From Armatimonadota bacterium (GTDB lineage Bacteria > Armatimonadota > Zipacnadia > Zipacnadales > VGFC01), in contig VGFC01000029.1 of the NCBI GenBank assembly GCA_016869045.1, positions 1 through 33,615 on the forward strand: DNA of 33,615 bases, in the 5' to 3' direction. The position numbers and the translations under genes are program-made. The notes under the pieces are model-generated. The model worked only from the letters and a program-made list of their open reading frames with translations, was not told the DNA's origin and did no database searches. This document shows positions 13,871 through 33,615 of the stretch, in pieces (the first letter of the stretch is position 1; every line of letters starts with the position of its first letter).

Positions 13871-13900
13871 TTGACAAGCCCTTGGGGAAGGGCTAATAGT
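13871..13900 (+). promoter_or_regulatory. Sigma70-type promoter of the SLH-porin gene with a palindrome in its spacer
   Basis: A perfect -35 box TTGACA (13871-13876) is followed 18 bases later by AATAGT (13895-13900) as a fair -10 box. The spacer contains the perfect inverted repeat GCCCTT/AAGGGC around GGGG (13878-13893), which could be an operator. The predicted start near 13907 leaves a leader of about 220 bases before the porin ATG at 14126. Confidence 0.6.
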
Positions 13901-13906
13901 ATTGCA

Positions 13907-14125
13907 CAGGTCGGCAGCGGTCACCTCCTTGGCCAGCGGAGAAATGTGACGCAAGGCACAGATGGGGTCTGCACGCAGAAAAAAGGGGGCCATGGGGCAG
14001 GAGGACGCCGTCGGTCTGTCGAACTGAGTCGGGACGGTATTGACTGGGCGCTTCGGGGGAAGTCGCTGCTTTGTTCGTCTCGGGCATCTGTTGCCCGCGC
14101 CGCAGCCATTCTCGGAGGGCCCAAC
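13907..14125 (+). promoter_or_regulatory. Long 5' leader of the porin mRNA containing an anti-Shine-Dalgarno sequence
   Basis: This stretch has no gene that I can support. Near its start is TCACCTCCTT (13921-13930), identical to the usual 3' end of 16S rRNA and able to pair with GGAGGG at 14114-14119, the ribosome-binding site of the porin gene. That would be a simple on/off translation control. Read on the minus strand the same bases are an ideal ribosome-binding site, but no good minus-strand gene starts there except a possible peptide of under 20 residues. Confidence 0.35.
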
Positions 14126-15787
14126 ATGAACCCCTCGAAGGCGTGCATCGCCGCTCTGCTGTTGAGTCTTCCGTGTCTCTCCCTGGCCGCCCCGGGTGAC
14201 ACTGTTCCCTTCGATCACTGGGCCTACGACGCCGTGCAGAAGCTGGTCGATGCCGGCGTCATAAAGGGATACCCTCCCGACTTCGCCTTCCGGGGCGAGC
14301 GCGCCCTGACCCGGTATGAGTTTGCCATGGCCATTGCACGGCTGATGGAGCAATCCGGCCGCGGGGGCGCGACGGGCCCTCCGGGCCCCAAGGGCGATCC
14401 CGGCGTTCAGGGCACGGTCGGCCCCAAGGGTCCAGCCGGTGACCGCGGCGCTGCCGGCCCTCCGGGGGAGAAGGGCGCGCCCGGCGCCCCAGGTCCGACC
14501 GGCCCGCCCGGGCCCAAGCCGACCGATGACGAAGTGCGCGCTGCCTGCGCCAAGCTGTTCGACGAGTTCAAAGCGGAACTCAGGGATGTCCGGACTCAGG
14601 CGGAGGACCTCGGTGCCGACCTCGAGGGCCTGGACGAGCGGATCGCCGATGTCGAGGCAGGGCTGAACCGGCCGCAGGTGACGGGGTGGATAGACTACCG
14701 TATCGGCCTGGTGGGCGACCTCTGGAAGAACGCCGAGTTCGACGCCCTGACGGCCAAGATTGGCATCGAGGGGCAGATCAACGACCAACTCCGTGGTCGC
14801 ATCGCCCTGAAGATGATCGATGACGCCACCCGCGTCGCCGATGCCCGACTGACGCCGCTCGTCCGCGATCCGCTAGGCATGTCGGACGCGATCTGGCTCG
14901 ACGAGGCCCTGTTCCAGTTCAGTACGGATTGCCTGACGCCTGCCGACTGGACGGTCGGGCGGCAGTTCGTTTCCTACGCGCAAGGCCTCACCGTGGACAA
15001 CGACCGCCTCAGCCAACAGGGCGTGCGTTGGACGCTGGACAACATCCGCGGTTCGGACCTGTCTCTCGACGCCTTCATCGGGTATGCGTACTACGATGAG
15101 GGGACCTTCTTCCTCATCAACCATGACCAGTACACGGCCTATCGACTGAGCTATGAGCGGCCCCGGTGGGGGATTGCCGGCACTCACTTGCTCGACGGCG
15201 CTGGTGACGAGCAGGCCTGGGGCGCCGACCTGCGGGCCACCATCTGGGGACGCGATCTCGCCTTCGAGTACGCCCAGATGTACCGGAACGCCTACCGTCG
15301 GACATTGGATGGGGTCCAGGCGTGGATGGGCTCAATCGACCTGTTGGATACGCCGAGCCTGAAGCTGACGGGGATTATCAGTCGGGCAGACGCGAACTAC
15401 GATCTTACATTCAGCTCGCTATTTCCGTACTACGAGACGCTGCAGTATGACCTGACCACGTATCCCGGCGCGGTTCCCTGGGAGCGTTGGATGCGCAACG
15501 CCCCGGTCTTCCGCGGGGCGCGTGCCATCGCGGCGATCGCCTCGGGGAAGATCGGCTCAACCCCGTTGGAGTTGCGGTACATCAACCTCGACCCCACGCT
15601 CGACCGCGCGCCGAGGTACTGGCCGGATTATGCGGTCGGCAACTACAACCATCTGCTGGCGCTCAGCGCGACCCGGCCGGTCGTCAATGGTCTGGATGCC
15701 ACCTTCTCGTGGGGACATCAGTTCTCCGACGTGGCGGGCCTCGACGATCTCGACCTCCTGCAGGCGGCAATGGTGGCCTCGTTCTGA
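14126..15787 (+). CDS. Outer-membrane porin with SLH domain and collagen-like repeat
   Basis: Outer-membrane beta-barrel anchored to the cell wall through an S-layer-homology domain, comparable to OmpM/SlpA-type proteins of diderm Terrabacteria. Seen: signal peptide (residues 1-21), one SLH domain (about 25-75: [20 protein letters not shown] ... [13 protein letters not shown]), then 17 uninterrupted Gly-X-Y triplets (81-131, 14366-14518), a predicted coiled coil (about 135-185, [18 protein letters not shown]), and a C-terminal barrel of about 360 residues ending in Phe, the usual barrel-insertion signal. ATG 14126 follows GGAGGG with good spacing; the frame extends upstream without signs of coding. 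The collagen-like stretch sits where OmpM-type proteins usually have only a coiled-coil stalk. A paralogue lies at the right end of the window. Confidence 0.9.
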
Positions 15788-16495: not shown

Positions 16496-16765
16496 GTGTC
16501 CACGGTCTACTGGCTGCTGGTTGCGGCTGCTGCAGTGTCGATCGTGTTGGGCGTCGTTGAGCACTTCGGTGGCATGTTCTTGCAGCCTCTGGGCATCACA
16601 CAAGCGTTCTCGGCGCTCGCGGACAACTGCCTCCTGCTTGCCATCGCGCTGGCAGTTGGGGAGCTGTTCCGCGCGGGAGCAGGTAAGGCGCCAGCCGAAG
16701 ACGCGCCGCGCATCGTTGTGGATCTCAATGGTGACCCCCACGGACGGCCGGCAGAACTCGACTAG
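16496..16765 (+). CDS. Small two-helix membrane protein, possibly with a replaced C-terminus
   Basis: 89-residue hypothetical protein. Seen: two hydrophobic segments (about residues 5-22, YWLLVAAAAVSIVLGVV, and 43-58, LADNCLLLAIALAVGELF), then a short charged tail. GTG 16496 has GGAGG at a good distance. The last about 20 residues (from 16700) lie exactly antisense to the conserved part of the GHMP-kinase remnant, so the original tail was probably lost when the two sequences were joined. No family is recognised. It could be a leftover gene or a small functional membrane protein. Confidence 0.5.
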   Translation: MSTVYWLLVAAAAVSIVLGVVEHFGGMFLQPLGITQAFSALADNCLLLAIALAVGELFRAGAGKAPAEDAPRIVVDLNGDPHGRPAELD

Positions 16766-17014
16766 GCGTACGATCAGATCCATGGGCCCGCCGAGGGCCA
16801 GTTCGTCAACGGACCGGGCCTCCTGCGCCAGCCCGCTGTCGAGCGACACGAGACGGAAGTGACCGTCGCCATTCGTAGTGAGCCGGACCTTGCTCCGGAC
16901 CGTGATCGCGGCGTTGACCGTGATCCCGCCCTCCTCGAAGAGGTACAGCGGGTAGGTGTTCAGTGTCCCACCGGCAAGGTCGATCCTGGAGGGTTCGATG
17001 GACTCGATGACCAT
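16699..17014 (-). pseudogene. GHMP-kinase 5' remnant
   Basis: The first about 105 codons of a GHMP-family sugar kinase. Seen: ATG 17014 with GGGAGG seven bases upstream, then PSRIDLAGGTLNTYPLYLFE and GGITVNAAITVRSKVRL, the family's N-terminal substrate-binding strands, followed by VDELALGGPMDLIVRLVEFC. The match stops just before the point where the ATP-binding loop (P-x-x-S-G-L-G-S/A-S) should follow, so no kinase can be made. The reading frame stays open by chance to 16025, antisense to unrelated genes. Members of this group act on sugars or sugar phosphates, for example in heptose activation. Family identification is by recognition of motifs. Confidence 0.72.
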
Positions 17015-17594
17015 GCATCGCCTCCCGATGGTTCCGCCACGATGCTTCTCGTGCGTTCGCCAGCGAAGCCCAGTGGGGCTTCCGGCAAAGCCGGGGAACG
17101 CCTCCACCTGCCCTGAACAGAGCACCCTATCCGGGGCAGCAGGATGTGCGAGTGCGGGTCGCACGAGGTCGGCAGGGAGGATGACACACAGCGAGTCGTA
17201 GGCACGGTCGGCGGGCCCCGAGCACCAGAACCACGCGGGCCAGCCGTAACGGCAGAGATGGCCCCGGGTGCAGCCGAAGCCAGCCTGTGGGTCCGTCACG
17301 AACTGGCCCGCGCTGGCCTAGGTCCAACAGCCCCGACCCGCGCCGGGGTCGGCTGAATCGGGGGCTGCCTCTCAGCAGTCGTTGGACCCGCCAATCCAAT
17401 AGACGCCGTCTCGCGGCGAAGGTTCCCTGTCGTCCGTGGCCCGAGGAGCGAGTCATGCCACGGCCCGGTGCCTCAGTTCGGAGCCACTACCAACTCCGCT
17501 CCCTGACGGCGGCTCAGAGAGCACGGACCAGGACATTACTGCCTGCATATGCTGTGTATTCCATCCCCTTAGTCCCCTTCAGGCCTACGGGTTC
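17015..17594. other. Gene-poor stretch between the GHMP and Cas8e remnants
   Basis: No gene is supported on either strand. Short frames exist but lack ribosome-binding sites and family motifs. The only clear structure is the 68-base palindromic element at 17321-17388. It is the space where the rest of a Cas operon would normally lie, but nothing recognisable of cse2, cas7, cas5, cas6, cas1 or cas2 is left. Confidence 0.5.
17321..17388. repeat. 68-base multi-stem palindromic element
   Basis: GGTCCAAC (17321-17328) and GTTGGACC (17381-17388) close an 8-bp stem. Inside, AGCCCC (17329-17334) can pair with GGGGCT (17361-17366), which itself encloses GACCC/GGGTC, and CAGC-type bases form a further small hairpin. 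On the minus strand it folds as a closing stem with two branches, like a structured RNA or a REP/MITE-type element. There is only one copy in the window, so its class cannot be decided. Confidence 0.5.
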
Positions 17595-17807
17595 CTAGTC
17601 CGTCAGGCTTGGCTTGCACCGCCGTACCGCGAGCAGGAAGCGCAGGAGGGCCACCCCGTCGAGGGGGTTCGGGGGGGCGATCTGGCGGATAGGCGCTGCC
17701 TTCGTCAGGGGGTCCCAGATGCCCACCCGGCCCGGCTCGCCGCAGGCCCACAGGATCTGAATCCACCCCTCCACGAGCAGGTTGCAGTGTGCGGTCTTCT
17801 GCCCCAT
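17595..17807 (-). pseudogene. Cas8e (Cse1/CasA) 5' remnant of a type I-E CRISPR-Cas operon
   Basis: 70-codon frame resembling the N-terminus of Cas8e, the large Cascade subunit that recognises the PAM. Seen: NLLVEGWIQIL, equivalent to the family opening NLL-x-E/D-x-W-I-P; a DPLTKAAPIRQIAPPNPLDG stretch that in family members follows the first strands (L-x-x-A-x-x-I-R-x-I-x-x-x-x-P-L); and ALLRFLLAVRRCK, where relatives carry A-L-x-R-x-L-L-A. The full protein is about 500 residues, so over 85% is missing. ATG 17807 has GAGGTG at good spacing. It lies just downstream of the Cas3-like remnant, the gene order of type I-E operons. The product could also be expressed as a small protein. Confidence 0.65.
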
Positions 17808-17866
17808 GGCTTCTTCACCTCGGCATGTCCGGGCTGCGCCAGACGTCTCGTGACCGTGGGCTTCCG

Positions 17867-18037
17867 TCAGGAGGGCGAGGACCGCGCCAAGTGCGCTCTC
17901 AGCCCGTCCGCCAGAGCGTTGTCCCACATGGCCTGCGGGGCATGAACGACATCGAGCAGGTGACACGCGAGGGGGTGAATGCGCCCATCCCCTTCACGCC
18001 GCTCCGCCCACAGACGGGCGGCTGCCTGTGACAGCAT
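17867..18037 (-). pseudogene. Cas3 HD-domain 5' remnant
   Basis: 56-codon frame matching the start of Cas3-type HD nucleases. Seen: AARLWAERREGDGRIHPLAC and HLLDVVHAPQAMWDNAL, equivalent to the L-W-x-K-x...H-P-L-x-x-H-x-L-D-V/T-x-x-x-A-x-x-x-W opening of type I-E Cas3, including the first conserved His of the HD site. It stops before the HD pair itself, so nuclease and helicase functions are absent (full Cas3 is about 900 residues). ATG 18037 follows GGGAGGTGA with ideal spacing. The frame is too short for standard gene lists and was found by translating the minus strand. The Cas8e remnant starts 60 bases downstream. Identification rests on motif recognition. Confidence 0.62.
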
Positions 18038-18375
18038 GGCGCTCACCTCCCAGCCTGCCGCAGGCGCGGAGGCCTCCAGTCACGACCGCTCGGGCGACGC
18101 CGGTCGAAAGCCGTTGCGTACTGTGGCCTTGGTTCCGACGCGCCAGCGAAGGGAGTCCGCACGGGTGGCGACCGGTCCTTCCAGTCCCGGCACGTCGCGC
18201 AGGAGACCGTGCGCTCCCACGGGAAGAGAGCGCTACGGTTCGTGCAGGTCGTCCACAGGCATCGATGCGCCCGCGCCAGCGGATGGCGTCGCCGAGGCCC
18301 CCTCCCCGGCTCTGGGGCACGCGCCTCGATACGTGTGAGCAGAGAGCGGCGACCGCCTGTGGAGGAGGTGACGCA
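18038..18375. other. Intergenic stretch upstream of the Cas3-like remnant
   Basis: About 340 bases separating the divergent Cas3-like remnant and the Cys-rich gene at 18376. Open frames exist in several phases, but none has a start with ribosome-binding site or a recognisable motif. No CRISPR repeats and no regulator gene are visible. Confidence 0.4.
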
Positions 18376-19140
18376 GTGACGCCCAAGCGCGCGAGGAAGT
18401 GGGTGCCGAGAGTCGAGACCGACACCGTCCGCGAGTGCGAAGCCCTTTGCGAGGTCCTCAACTGGACCGAGGAGGAGGCTGCACAAGCCGAAGCCGAGGT
18501 AGCCCGGTGCTTCGAGGAGCGCAGGGCACTGCGCGAGAGATACGGATGGGGCCTCACCCCCTTCGAGGAGGCCCTCGGCTATGTCCCTGAGGCCTTTGCC
18601 GGCGCCATCCCGTTGCTGCGGCGCATGGCACGGCACATCCTGGATCGCGCTGGTGTGCCCCTTGCCGCGGGGCCATGGCCACTCGACGCGCCGGGCGTCC
18701 GGTACATACGGATGCTGGACGAGTCCGAACGACCGGGACGCCAACCCGCCGCTGCCACGAGGTTCCTCCCAGTCAGCGCCGTCGGGATAGACGAGCGTGA
18801 GGCTCGGATGCTGAACCATCTTGCCCGCATAGGACCCAAGTGGTTCGAGGTGCGGTTCGTGCCCCCCCGGCAAGGGTACGAGGCCATCGTGATGGTGTCC
18901 TGGAAGGGCCTGCCGTATGATGGAACCTCCAGGATCGTCTGGGCGACCCGCGCCCTCCTAGCTGTCCTCTTGGGCGAGGTACAGCTCGCGCGCTGCACAG
19001 TGAAATGGCAGAGAGGTCCCCGCAAGGGTCAGCGGTGCGGGCGCGTGTATGTGGTCCAAGGCCCCGCCGGACGTACTCGAGACTTCTGCGGCTCGGCCGC
19101 CTGCAAGGAGCGGCGCAAACGCAACCCCCTGGATGACTAA
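18376..19140 (+). CDS. Unknown protein with C-terminal CGNR-like zinc-finger pattern
   Basis: 254-residue protein of no recognised family. Seen: an N-terminal helical, charged region (RECEALCEVLNWTEEEAAQA), a middle region with no motif, and a C-terminal basic Cys cluster (ARCTVKW...QRCGRVYVVQ...TRDFCGSAACKERRKRN). The spacing, two separated Cys and then C-G-S-x-x-C followed by basic residues, resembles CGNR-type zinc fingers of bacterial regulators, which bind nucleic acid. GTG 18376 has GGAGGAGGTGA six bases upstream, an excellent site. The frame extends further back to 18028, but that part is Arg/Pro-rich noise. It sits in the integrative island and is divergent from the Cas3-like remnant. 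A DNA-binding role is an inference. Confidence 0.65.
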   Translation: MTPKRARKWVPRVETDTVRECEALCEVLNWTEEEAAQAEAEVARCFEERRALRERYGWGLTPFEEALGYVPEAFAGAIPLLRRMARHILDRAGVPLAAGPWPLDAPGVRYIRMLDESERPGRQPAAATRFLPVSAVGIDEREARMLNHLARIGPKWFEVRFVPPRQGYEAIVMVSWKGLPYDGTSRIVWATRALLAVLLGEVQLARCTVKWQRGPRKGQRCGRVYVVQGPAGRTRDFCGSAACKERRKRNPLDD

Positions 19141-19225: not shown

Positions 19226-19471
19226 ATGACACCACGGGGCGCAGAGAGCACCATGAGCAACGCGGGTCCGAAGGCCATGTTGACCACGACAGAGGCGGCG
19301 ACGAGGTTGGGCGTCTCCCGGCAGACCGTGCTTCGTTGGGTGCGCGGTCACACGCTGCCCGCGGTACGGGTGGGGCGTCAGTGGAGGGTCGAGGGGCGCG
19401 CGCTGGCGACGTGGATCGACGCACGGCGGAACGCCTGTCAGGTTCCTCAGACGAACGGACAGCCATCCTGA
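19226..19471 (+). CDS. Excisionase-like helix-turn-helix DNA-binding protein
   Basis: 81-residue MerR/excisionase-type (HTH_17) DNA-binding protein, likely the directionality factor or regulator of the neighbouring recombinases. Seen: the family pattern LTTTEAATRLGVSRQTVLRWVRGHTLPAVRVGRQWRV, comprising the helix-turn-helix (TEAATRLGVSRQTVLRWV) and wing (PAVRVGRQWRV), then a helix ending DLATWI-like (RALATWIDARR). ATG 19226 is placed on the predicted transcription start; ATG 19253 is an alternative start giving 72 residues. It is 72 bases upstream of the first integrase on the same strand, a common arrangement in integrative elements. Confidence 0.85.
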   Translation: MTPRGAESTMSNAGPKAMLTTTEAATRLGVSRQTVLRWVRGHTLPAVRVGRQWRVEGRALATWIDARRNACQVPQTNGQPS

Positions 19472-19543: not shown

Positions 19544-20725
19544 ATGAGTGAGACTACACCATCGCTCGTTCCGAATCAAGACCCCGGCGCAAAAAGGCCG
19601 GCCCCCACCGAGGGGCTCGAACCTCGCAACGTCGGTCCCAACGCTGAGCCCGGAGCCCATCGCGGCCCGACAGGCTTCGTCCCCGACGACGCGATAGGTT
19701 CGCCGACGTGGGCCGAGGCATGGGAGGAGTTCCGCGAGGAGAAGCTCCTCCAGCCCTGCAAGCCCCAGACCATCGACCAATACGGCTTTGCGCTGAGACC
19801 CCTCCGCCGCTGGGTACTGCAGACGCTCAGGCACGACCGCCTCGAACTCCTCACGGAGGCGGACGCCAGGGCGTACCTCGCCCACGTCAAGGAGTACGGC
19901 GCCGACGGCAAGCGGTCTATCGGGCAGGGGCGGCTCTTTGCGATATACCGACACCTCAACGTCTTCTTCAGGTGGTTGGCGGAGAGGGGGTACGCGACCC
20001 ACAACCCCTTCGCCAACATCAGGATCGACAAGCCCCGCGATGACGACCCGCTCTTCCCCGAACTGACCCCCGACCAGATTGCGCGGTTGCTGTCGGTGAT
20101 CGACACCACGACCTTCGCGGGGCATCGCGACCGGCTGCTTCTGCTGTACCTCTACACGACCGCGGCGCGGATCACAGAGGCGCTGTCGGTGCAAGTGAGG
20201 GAGGAGCTAGCGCGAGGCGAGGTGACATTCGTCGGCAAGGGCGAGAAGGAAAGGCAGGCCGGCCTGGCCGTCGAGTTCCGGCGCGAACTGCCGGCGTACC
20301 ATCGCGCGCGCAACGCGCACCTGGCGAGCATAGGCCGAAGCGATTCACGATGGTTGTTCCCGAACAAGGACGGCGACCGACTCGGCGCTCATACCGTGTG
20401 GGATCGCCTGAAGGTCTACAAGGCGCGGGCCGGGATCGAGGACGCCCGCTGCTCACCTCACGACTTCCGGCACTCCTACGCGCTGGCCCATCAGCGGGAG
20501 AAGGGCGACTCCCTCGAACTCATGCACATCCTCGGACACTCGACCCTCGCGATGACGAACCGTTACGCGAAGCAGGCGGCGCGGGACGTGAGGGGCGCGA
20601 TGCAGAAGTGGTCGCCGCTGGCCTCGATCCAGGTTCCGCCGTTGCAGCGGAGTGCCGAAGGCGGGGCCGCTTCTCGGAATCGAGGGCGAGCGCGGAGACC
20701 AGGCTCAGTTCACGTTGCTTCGTGA
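19544..20725 (+). CDS. Tyrosine recombinase/integrase 1
   Basis: Site-specific recombinase of the phage-integrase family. Seen: an N-terminal SAM-like core-binding domain (about residues 60-150, TWAEAWEEFREEKLL ... FFRWLAERGYATHNP), then a catalytic domain with Arg (YTTAARITEAL), Lys (FVGKGEKER), H-x-x-R (SPHDFRHSYA), the second His (HILGHSTLAMTNRYAK) and its Tyr. All catalytic residues are present, so it is probably active. ATG 19544 has GGGAGG at good spacing. The last about 69 codons overlap integrase 2, read from the other strand, and its tail (after about residue 355) has no family match, so the true end was probably altered. The first about 50 residues are low-complexity. Confidence 0.9.
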   Translation: MSETTPSLVPNQDPGAKRPAPTEGLEPRNVGPNAEPGAHRGPTGFVPDDAIGSPTWAEAWEEFREEKLLQPCKPQTIDQYGFALRPLRRWVLQTLRHDRLELLTEADARAYLAHVKEYGADGKRSIGQGRLFAIYRHLNVFFRWLAERGYATHNPFANIRIDKPRDDDPLFPELTPDQIARLLSVIDTTTFAGHRDRLLLLYLYTTAARITEALSVQVREELARGEVTFVGKGEKERQAGLAVEFRRELPAYHRARNAHLASIGRSDSRWLFPNKDGDRLGAHTVWDRLKVYKARAGIEDARCSPHDFRHSYALAHQREKGDSLELMHILGHSTLAMTNRYAKQAARDVRGAMQKWSPLASIQVPPLQRSAEGGAASRNRGRARRPGSVHVAS

Positions 20726-21623
20726 GGAAGTCCACATCGGCCAGTTCGCAGTAGTGGCGGCTCATCAGGAGACTCGAATGGCCCAGACAACGCTGCAGAT
20801 GAAACGGCGAGCCCCCGTTGCGGACAAAGAAGACCGCGAAGCTGTGTCTCATCGTGTGGGCGCTGACCCGCACATGGTTCAGGCCCGCGCGGCGACCGTA
20901 CCGCTTGAGCTGCTCGTGGAACGTCGCCGCGGTGGCCCGCTTGCCGAACCAGTTCAGCCACACCCAACCGTGATCCGGGAGGCCGGCGCTCTTCAGGGCC
21001 AGTGCGCGACGGGTGAGGTACGTCTGCAGGCGCGCGGCGCAGGTGGGCGAGAAGCCGACCAGCCTCTCTCTTGCACCCTTGCCCATCACTCGCAGCGTGA
21101 GGCCGGGGAGGTCCACGTCCCCCAGGCGCAGCCCGAGGGCCTCGGACAAGCGAAGGCCGGTGTCCAGCAGGAGCAGGATGAACGTGAGGTCGCGCAATCC
21201 GACGAACGTCGTGGTGTCGGGCTGACGGAGGAGGGCTTCGAGGTCCGCCAGGCCGAGTGTGGCGATGATCTTGCGCGGCTCGCGGAGCTTGCGGAGGCGA
21301 GCGGCGGGGCTGACGGCGACAAACCCCTCCCCTTGTGCCCAGTCGAAGAAGCAGCGGAGGATCATGCGGTACTGGTTGACGCGCGCGGCCTGTACCCGCG
21401 ACTGCCGGTCGGCGACGAAGGTGCGGACGTGGGCCTCGGTCACTTCGTCGATCCGGTCGCAGCCGACCGACCGGGCGTACTTGGCGAAGGGGCCGAGGGT
21501 GTACCGTTGCAGGACCAGGTAGGTCGCGCTCAGTCCACGGAGGCGCGACTCCAGCAGGAACGACTCCACGGCGTCTTCGAGCAGCGGCGCGGCGGCGACG
21601 GACAGACGCAGTACGGCGGGCAT
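20520..21623 (-). CDS. Tyrosine recombinase/integrase 2
   Basis: Second tyrosine recombinase, XerC/D-like in size. Seen: core-binding domain (about residues 15-100, LEDAVESFLLESRLRGLSATY), catalytic Arg (DTGLRLSEALGL), Lys (VMGKGARERLV), H-x-x-R (SAHTMRHSFA), His (RCLGHSSLLMSRHYCEL) and the Tyr. All active-site residues are intact. ATG 21623 has AGGGAG upstream; the frame's extension to 21647 is not needed. The C-terminal 60 residues (Ser/Arg/Pro-rich) are read from DNA antisense to integrase 1, so the native stop was probably lost. It is next to the tRNA-Leu fragment at about 21793, the presumed attachment site, and convergent with integrase 1. Confidence 0.9.
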   Translation of the reverse strand: MPAVLRLSVAAAPLLEDAVESFLLESRLRGLSATYLVLQRYTLGPFAKYARSVGCDRIDEVTEAHVRTFVADRQSRVQAARVNQYRMILRCFFDWAQGEGFVAVSPAARLRKLREPRKIIATLGLADLEALLRQPDTTTFVGLRDLTFILLLLDTGLRLSEALGLRLGDVDLPGLTLRVMGKGARERLVGFSPTCAARLQTYLTRRALALKSAGLPDHGWVWLNWFGKRATAATFHEQLKRYGRRAGLNHVRVSAHTMRHSFAVFFVRNGGSPFHLQRCLGHSSLLMSRHYCELADVDFLTKQRELSLVSALALDSEKRPRLRHSAATAEPGSRPAATTSASRPSRPAPPASRNGSSSRGSSVRGCA

Positions 21624-21744
21624 GGCAGACTCCCTTCGGGAGTCCATCGCGCGGGTGCAAAGCTAGTGACCCTCACGGGCAACCAGCCGTGCAATATAGT
21701 GAGTTACCTCGCGGGGGCGTCCAAGAAAGCCCGGAAAATGGGGC

Positions 21745-21865: not shown

Positions 21866-21941
21866 GGGCGGTTAGCTCAGTTGGGAGAGCGTCTGTCTCA
21901 CGCACAGAAGGTCAGAGGTTCAAGCCCTCTACCGCCCACCA
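21866..21941 (+). tRNA. tRNA-Val (CAC)
   Basis: Full cloverleaf: acceptor GGGCGGT/ACCGCCC, D-arm GCTC/GAGC, anticodon stem TCTGT/ACAGA with loop CTCACGC (anticodon CAC), T-arm AGAGG/CCTCT, and encoded CCA at the end. Confidence 0.95.
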
Positions 21942-21965
21942 GACTCAGTACACGATGGCCGGAGT

Positions 21966-22041
21966 GCGGGCGTAGCTCAGTTGGCAGAGCACCAGCTTCC
22001 CAAGCTGGGTGTCGCCGGTTCGAATCCGGTCGCCCGCTCCA
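21966..22041 (+). tRNA. tRNA-Gly (CCC)
   Basis: Acceptor GCGGGCG/CGCCCGC, D-arm GCTC/GAGC, anticodon stem CCAGC/GCTGG with loop TTCCCAA (anticodon CCC), T-arm GCCGG/CCGGT, encoded CCA. Lies 24 bases after tRNA-Val. Confidence 0.95.
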
Positions 22042-22086
22042 GGATGAGCAGACGGCGTCCCGACTCGGTACGGGACCCATGGACGA

Positions 22087-22162
22087 GCGGAAGTAGCTCA
22101 GTTGGTAGAGCGCCTCCTTGCCAAGGAGAAGGTCGCGGGTTCGAGTCCCGTCTTCCGCTCCA
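22087..22162 (+). tRNA. tRNA-Gly (GCC)
   Basis: Acceptor GCGGAAG/CTTCCGC, D-arm GCTC/GAGC, anticodon loop TTGCCAA (anticodon GCC) on a stem with a C-A mismatch at its base, T-arm GCGGG/CCCGT, encoded CCA. Confidence 0.95.
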
Positions 22163-22177
22163 GACTCTTCCCGAGTT

Positions 22178-22199
22178 GGGCCGGGCGCTTGCCCGGCCC
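22178..22199 (+). terminator. Terminator-like hairpin after tRNA-Gly (GCC)
   Basis: GGGCCGGGC and GCCCGGCCC form a perfect 9-bp stem around GCTT, 15 bases after the tRNA. Only a short TTT follows (about 22205), so termination may be partial. The -35 box of the next tRNA promoter overlaps the loop. Confidence 0.6.
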
Positions 22200-22217
22200 G
22201 CCGGTTTGTGGTATAAG
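22189..22217 (+). promoter_or_regulatory. Promoter of tRNA-Cys
   Basis: TTGCCC (22189-22194) and TATAAG (22212-22217) are spaced by 17 bases. The expected start near 22224 is only about 2 bases upstream of the tRNA 5' end at 22226. Confidence 0.6.
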
Positions 22218-22225
22218 CGACGTGA

Positions 22226-22301
22226 GGCGGCATAGCCAAGTGGCTAAGGCGGCGGTCTGCAAAACCGCTATCCGCCGGTTCGATTCCGGCTGCCGCCTCC
22301 A
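22226..22301 (+). tRNA. tRNA-Cys (GCA)
   Basis: Acceptor GGCGGCA/TGCCGCC, D-arm GCC/GGC, anticodon stem GCGGT/ACCGC with loop CTGCAAA (anticodon GCA), T-arm GCCGG/CCGGC, encoded CCA. Confidence 0.95.
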
Positions 22302-22324
22302 GCAATCTGACCGACCATTGAGGG

Positions 22325-22346
22325 GCGGGCCCGGTGGCTCGCCCGC
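22325..22346 (+). terminator. Possible terminator hairpin after tRNA-Cys
   Basis: GCGGGC (22325-22330) and GCCCGC (22341-22346) form a 6-bp stem with a 10-base loop, followed by a mixed T-rich stretch (TCTGGTTCTCT). A weak candidate. Confidence 0.35.
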
Positions 22347-22366
22347 TCTGGTTCTCTGGGCCCTCG

Positions 22367-22396
22367 TTGACGCGGGCGGGCGGGGTCGTCTATAGT
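22367..22396 (+). promoter_or_regulatory. Promoter of tRNA-Leu
   Basis: TTGACG (22367-22372) and TATAGT (22391-22396) are spaced by 18 bases, ending 9 bases before the tRNA 5' end. Confidence 0.65.
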
Positions 22397-22405
22397 GGCT
22401 GCCGG

Positions 22406-22493
22406 GCCGGGGTGGCGGAATGGTAGACGCCTGGGACTTAAAATCCCATGAGCCGAGTGGCTCGTGAGGGTTCGATTCCCTCCCCCGGCACCA
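22406..22493 (+). tRNA. tRNA-Leu (TAA)
   Basis: Class II tRNA with a long variable arm (GAGCCGAGTGGCTCG region). Acceptor GCCGGGG/CCCCGGC, anticodon stem TGGGA/TCCCA with loop CTTAAAA (anticodon TAA), T-arm GAGGG/CCCTC, encoded CCA. Confidence 0.95.
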
Positions 22494-33163: not shown

Positions 33164-33615
33164 TCAGAAGGAGGCCACCGCAGCCGCCTGGAGCAGGTCG
33201 ATGTCGCTGAGCCCCGCACCGTTGGCGAACTCCCGACCCCAGGTGAACGTGAAGTCGAGCCCCTGCACCACCGGCCTGGTCGCGCTGAGCGCCAGCAGAT
33301 GGTTGTACTGGCCCACGGCGTAGTCCGGCCACCAGGCGGGCGGCGCCGCCAGGACGGGATCGAGGTTCACGTAGCGTACCTCGATGGGCGTGTCGCCGAT
33401 CTGAGTGGCCGCAATCGCGGAGAGCGCTCGGGCGCCCCGGAACACCGGAGCATTCCGCGTCCACCGCTCCCAGGGCACCGCGCCGTTCGGCAGGTTGTAC
33501 TGCAGCGTCTCGTAGTAGGGGAACAGCGACGAGAAGGTCAGATCGTATTCCGCATCCGCGCGACTGGCAACACCGGTCAACCGCAAGCTGGGCGTATCCA
33601 GCAGGTCGAAGCTGC
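33164..33615 (-). CDS. Second SLH-porin paralogue, 3' part (cut by window edge)
   Basis: C-terminal 150 residues of an outer-membrane porin closely related to the one at 14126-15787. The frame is open to the window edge; its 5' end is outside. Seen: [13 protein letters not shown], matching the paralogue's [11 protein letters not shown], then [60 protein letters not shown], and the end AAAVASF with terminal Phe. The most conserved part is the last barrel strands. Whether it also has SLH and collagen-like parts cannot be seen. Confidence 0.88.
   Translation of the reverse strand, partial: SFDLLDTPSLRLTGVASRADAEYDLTFSSLFPYYETLQYNLPNGAVPWERWTRNAPVFRGARALSAIAATQIGDTPIEVRYVNLDPVLAAPPAWWPDYAVGQYNHLLALSATRPVVQGLDFTFTWGREFANGAGLSDIDLLQAAAVASF

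Follow-up and report, generated by a model that had tools for sequence, protein, structure and literature searches.

Two short minus-strand frames in the window, a 33,615-nucleotide contig (C29) from an Armatimonadota genome, are likely the relic of an I-E2 CRISPR-Cas operon, in which cas3 was cut down first and the operon was lost later. We hold the order of these steps less firmly than the rest of the reading; cas3 was probably trimmed before the operon died. The assembly to which the window belongs comprises 7.87 Mb in 723 contigs and is 95.4% complete, with an estimated contamination of 4.35%.

Both frames are genuine pieces of Cas proteins, namely the start of the Cas3 HD domain and the start of Cas8e. 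A first-pass annotation made from the letters alone had recognized two consecutive minus-strand frames of 56 and 70 codons here, in the cas3-then-cas8e order, and had suggested comparing their translations with Cas3_HD and Cas8e profiles. The frames are present as described, their order is the usual one, and both comparisons yield matches above the curated Pfam cut-offs. The cas3 remnant (17867..18037, minus strand, 56 codons) aligns to positions 2-45 of the 207 in PF18019 (Cas3_HD) with an E-value of 1.4e-6 and 28.9 bits, against a cut-off of 23.1 bits, and stops short of the HD dyad. It also matches the Cas3 structures 6c66 and 4qqw (phmmer, E 1e-5), is called as Cas3e by PADLOC (E 2.7e-4), and takes the longer, canonical Cas3 form in an alignment of 22 Cas3 N-termini. 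The cas8e remnant (17595..17807, minus strand, 70 codons) aligns to positions 1-53 of the 450 in PF09481 (CRISPR_Cse1) with an E-value of 3.6e-10 and 40 bits, against a cut-off of 24.7 bits; it matches the Cse1 structures 8yb6 and 8zlu (E 2e-5), and PADLOC calls it as Cas8e (E 3.2e-9). Missing from the two stubs are the HD dyad of Cas3 and 88% of the Cas8e profile.

Shine-Dalgarno-like motifs lie at a normal distance from each start, as the first-pass annotation had noted: GGAGG (18046..18050, minus strand) is 8 nt upstream of the cas3 ATG, and GAGG (17818..17821, minus strand) is 10 nt upstream of the cas8e ATG. Across the window, 8.8% of all ATGs are preceded at 4-16 nt by a motif of this kind, and the two starts therefore look inherited. 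The openness of the frames carries little information; at the local G+C content, the chance probability of an open frame is 0.28 for 56 codons and 0.20 for 70 codons. The 59 nt between the cas3 remnant and the cas8e start (17808..17866, minus strand) hold no recognizable Cas3 sequence when their three frames are searched with a hidden Markov model of Cas3 N-termini. A frame-shifted continuation of cas3 towards the HD dyad, in the frame with ALGAVLALLTEAHGHETSG, was rejected, as it finds no profile support.

To place the Cas8e fragment, we compared it with the Cas8e proteins of related genomes, which were matched in 13 of 46 genomes of the class and 43 of 291 genomes of the phylum. Nearest to the stub by sequence is a group of seven of these genomes, distinguished by a Cas5 that carries an HNH nuclease domain at its C-terminus. 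In a maximum-likelihood tree, the stub and the seven Cas8e of the Cas5-HNH genomes are separated from 22 canonical Cas8e with a support of 100/100, in a comparison that rests on approximately 80 columns (the first ~80 residues). The residues IA..NP.D, LRFLLAV, and CK are common to the stub and the I-E2 Cas8e. By these sequence comparisons, the fragment belongs to the I-E2 (Cas5-HNH) clade, a rare, Cas3-independent kind, apart from ordinary I-E. The original assignment to a type I-E operon is thus made more specific. In I-E2 systems the HNH domain replaces Cas3 as the nuclease, and Cas3 is typically missing (PMC12669027; PMC10910872). Their discoverers described rare cas3 remnants or truncations near Cas5-HNH systems, and proposed a progressive disappearance of cas3 (PMC10910872). 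The HNH domain of the operon in the window cannot be seen, as its cas5 is gone, and the locus is filed only as a relic of I-E2 rather than as an I-E2 system because neither Cas5e nor Cas5-HNH is found in the assembly.

Full operons, which the first-pass annotation had proposed to look for, exist in related genomes. The closest row to the stub in the tree is an I-E2 locus of the same class (L028, genome G003), whose Cas8e falls in the same clade and is 55.7% identical to the fragment over 61 aa, with similarity reaching ...AV-RRCKP. This locus features whole cas8e, cas7, cas5-HNH, and cas6e genes and a 15-repeat array, without cas3, whereas the window retains two gene beginnings only. Canonical I-E operons of the same order and class (for example L018, L019, L022) share with the window the cas3-cas8e gene order and the form of the Cas3 N-terminus; however, their cas3 is whole, and the I-E2 residues are missing from their Cas8e, which falls elsewhere in the tree.

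Apart from the two stubs, the assembly gave no convincing trace of cas genes, in agreement with the first-pass annotation, which had seen no other cas gene or repeat array in the window. A Cas8e search of the assembly hits the cas8e stub and nothing else, and the cas3 stub ranks first for Cas3_HD, ahead of two marginal HD matches at other places (E 0.002 and 0.012). Cas1 was not found in the assembly by a search in which nine control genomes were positive, and nothing there matched a Cas5-HNH profile with which Cas5e is recovered from many genomes of the phylum. Searching with a Cas7 query or with a repeat pattern modeled on I-E2 arrays, both without a positive control of their own, likewise gave no match in the assembly. 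Within the window, translated searches with the frames of I-E2 operons revealed no further cas remnant, and no I-E repeat was found. Working Cascade genes and an array, by which type I-E is recognized, are thus not seen, and Cas8e is represented by the first 53 of 450 profile positions only. The sequence at ~17557-17583 (GTATTCCATCCCCTTAGTCCCC...), past the cas8e stub, was considered as a CRISPR repeat and rejected, being present as one copy in the assembly; it occurs in none of 45 other genomes of the class, and three unrelated single matches were obtained among other genome contigs. Close homologs of the stubs were found neither in plasmids (one weak match to a canonical casA) nor in phages, viral contigs, or other genome contigs.

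Two living I-E2 relatives carry an arrangement of cas3 front end and I-E2 cas8e like that of the window. Directly upstream of cas8e, G281 (L058) features a cas3 front end of 80 codons (Cas3_HD, E 6.9e-15), and G236 (L059) one of 94 codons (E 2.7e-11). Measured from the start of cas3 to the first cas8e codon that aligns, the spacing is 254 nt in the window, 284 nt in G281, and 275 nt in G236; where cas3 is whole (eight operons), it amounts to 2,669-2,887 nt. These two account for the retained front ends among the seven other I-E2 loci that were read upstream of cas8e, the remaining five showing no cas3 match at all. It is this comparable front end, at similar spacing, that suggests cas3 was probably cut first. 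The first-pass annotation had treated the loss of cas3 as part of the decay of the operon; most of cas3 is indeed gone, but its loss need not belong to the death of the operon, since I-E2 systems are typically without cas3 and two relatives keep its front end.

The three loci also differ. The mini-Cas3 of G281 and G236 are of a short form that includes the HD dyad (HDIGKADP), whereas the fragment in the window is of the longer form without the dyad. In G236 the remaining operon is present, and in G281 the Cas5-HNH gene lies on another contig, the cas8e contig ending there; the window has neither. In a Cas3 tree, the G236 mini-Cas3 groups with the whole Cas3 of that genome's own canonical operon (97/86), while the window fragment is placed unsurely. 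A single conserved mini-Cas3 family was not adopted, given that the window fragment and the two mini-Cas3 differ in Cas3 form. Since the form differs and the G236 fragment groups with its own whole Cas3, sequence comparison suggests that the three truncations may be independent.

Several related arrangements were observed alongside these loci. G236 carries both the I-E2 operon with mini-cas3 (L059, contig C36) and a canonical I-E operon (L065, contig C12), and its mini-Cas3 looks as if copied from its own whole Cas3. Outside the I-E2 clade, a 317-aa HD-bearing short Cas3 frame stands ahead of a whole cas3 in L064 (G060, contig C3, 10030-10983, minus strand), and the cas3-to-cas8e spacing is just 971 nt in L026 (G014, contig C206, 6137-7108, plus strand). 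A Cas8e front end of 72 codons (Pfam E 2.1e-9) was found in L053 (G074, contig C89, 7602-7820, plus strand); it immediately precedes, and overlaps, a whole cas3, which is itself followed by a whole cas8e.

We propose that the operon was reduced in two steps. In the first, the HNH nuclease of Cas5 would have taken over DNA cutting and rendered most of cas3 dispensable, and tolerated deletions would have joined the operon front and its first translation start to cas8e, ~250-285 nt apart. In the second, a later deletion or recombination event beside the tRNA genes would have removed the remaining cas8e and all downstream genes. Retention of the front end would reflect what lies upstream of cas3, namely the operon's first start codon and, presumably, its promoter: a deletion within cas3 that spares this front would preserve expression, whereas one that removes it would shut the operon off, and cas3 front ends may for this reason be left more often than other parts of the gene. 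We consider it unlikely that an operon still carrying a whole cas3 lost most of cas3 and cas8e, together with the remaining genes, in a single process, with the truncation of cas3 unrelated to the HNH variant. Deletions are common in dead operons, and the cas3 fragment has the form seen in intact canonical Cas3 proteins from its class; set against this are a Cas8e fragment from a clade whose members are typically without Cas3, and a cas3-to-cas8e spacing near that of the two I-E2 mini-cas3 loci. A distinctly improbable reading holds that the I-E2 cas3 front end works, either as a ~250-285-nt leader (comprising the operon start, a ribosome-binding site, and a short Cas3-HD peptide) that drives or couples cas8e translation, or through an action of the HD peptide, with the window carrying a dead copy.

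The surroundings of the stubs bear on the second step of the proposed two-step loss. The left flank (16974..17426) is shared with the same-genus genome G001 at 81% identity. This similarity stops at 17426, 168 nt from the cas8e remnant, and past that point G001 carries tyrosine recombinase genes that share only ~30% identity with the recombinases of the window. On the far side of the stubs, Pfam and NCBIfam searches identified a cysteine-rich frame that belongs to no known family (18361-19140, plus strand), a helix-turn-helix gene (19226-19471, plus strand), and two tyrosine recombinases (19544-20725, plus strand; 20520-21647, minus strand), followed by five tRNA genes (Val, Gly, Gly, Cys, Leu; 21866..22493, plus strand). 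The stubs thus appear to sit at the edge of a recombinase-rich variable site, where recombination can explain the loss of the operon. A comparison of the tRNA cluster with the rest of the window detected no att repeats of at least 14 nt, direct or inverted. That an error of assembly or binning wrongly joined the two pieces, out of an entire operon or a contig of foreign origin, is very improbable: the assembly is in 723 contigs with some estimated contamination, but no whole Cas8e, Cas5e, or Cas1 was found in it, the left flank follows the same-genus genome up to 17426, and two other genomes show this arrangement as well.

Other features were observed in this part of the window. A hairpin at 17322-17387 with the arms GTCCAAC/GTTGGAC is kept in G001 (L079) and present as a single copy in the window; it has no Rfam match, and its fold is only slightly better than that of shuffled sequences (z -2.0). 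Its outer arms fit the integron attC pattern RYYYAAC/GTTRRRY, but an attC reading was not adopted because, judged by eye, the inner arms do not pair as L boxes and the similarity to G001 extends 39 nt beyond the hairpin. Further left, 16708-17014 (minus strand) comprises the front end (~102 codons) of a GHMP-kinase-like gene, the third consecutive truncated gene beginning on the same strand; a whole 343-aa copy is found on contig C16 (L080, 2632-3663), with 85% DNA identity over 309 nt. An SLH-domain, collagen-like protein of outer-membrane type is encoded at 13871-15787 (plus strand), the end of which has a second copy, 73% identical, at 33164-33609 (minus strand) and more copies on other contigs.

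The fragments are very probably dead. There are signs of relaxed constraint: glutamine stands in the window where all of 29 relatives have proline, the window alone departs from conserved I-E2 columns at seven positions (compared to two for L028 alone), and the end branch of its Cas8e is the longest of the clade (1.17 vs 0.16-0.53). No Cas8e match was found in G001, the only other genome of the genus compared. The operon looks dead because the HD dyad and most of Cas8e are missing, the proline has changed, the branch is the longest, and the frames are of chance length. These data support decay by deletion, as the first-pass annotation had suggested, and the remnants most likely do nothing now. 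We give almost no credence to its other suggestion, that small proteins were retained and could act on Cascade or Cas3 of a related system, or to the wider reading in which these proteins or the transcript would have a regulatory or inhibitory effect on such targets. Ribosome-binding sites are preserved at both starts, and G074 has a comparable Cas8e stub ahead of a whole cas3, but the assembly showed neither a Cascade gene nor a whole Cas3, the stub is absent from the same-genus genome, an invariant residue is altered on a long branch, and the frame lengths lie within chance.

Taken alone, the locus is an ordinary pseudogene pair. As a likely relic of I-E2, it would be a fossil of the type I CRISPR lineage whose Cas3 gave way to an HNH nuclease. 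With G281 and G236 included, it brings to three the genomes, each from a different family, in which a cas3 front end lies ~250-285 nt before cas8e, and with these three loci the question of how cas3 was lost becomes testable.
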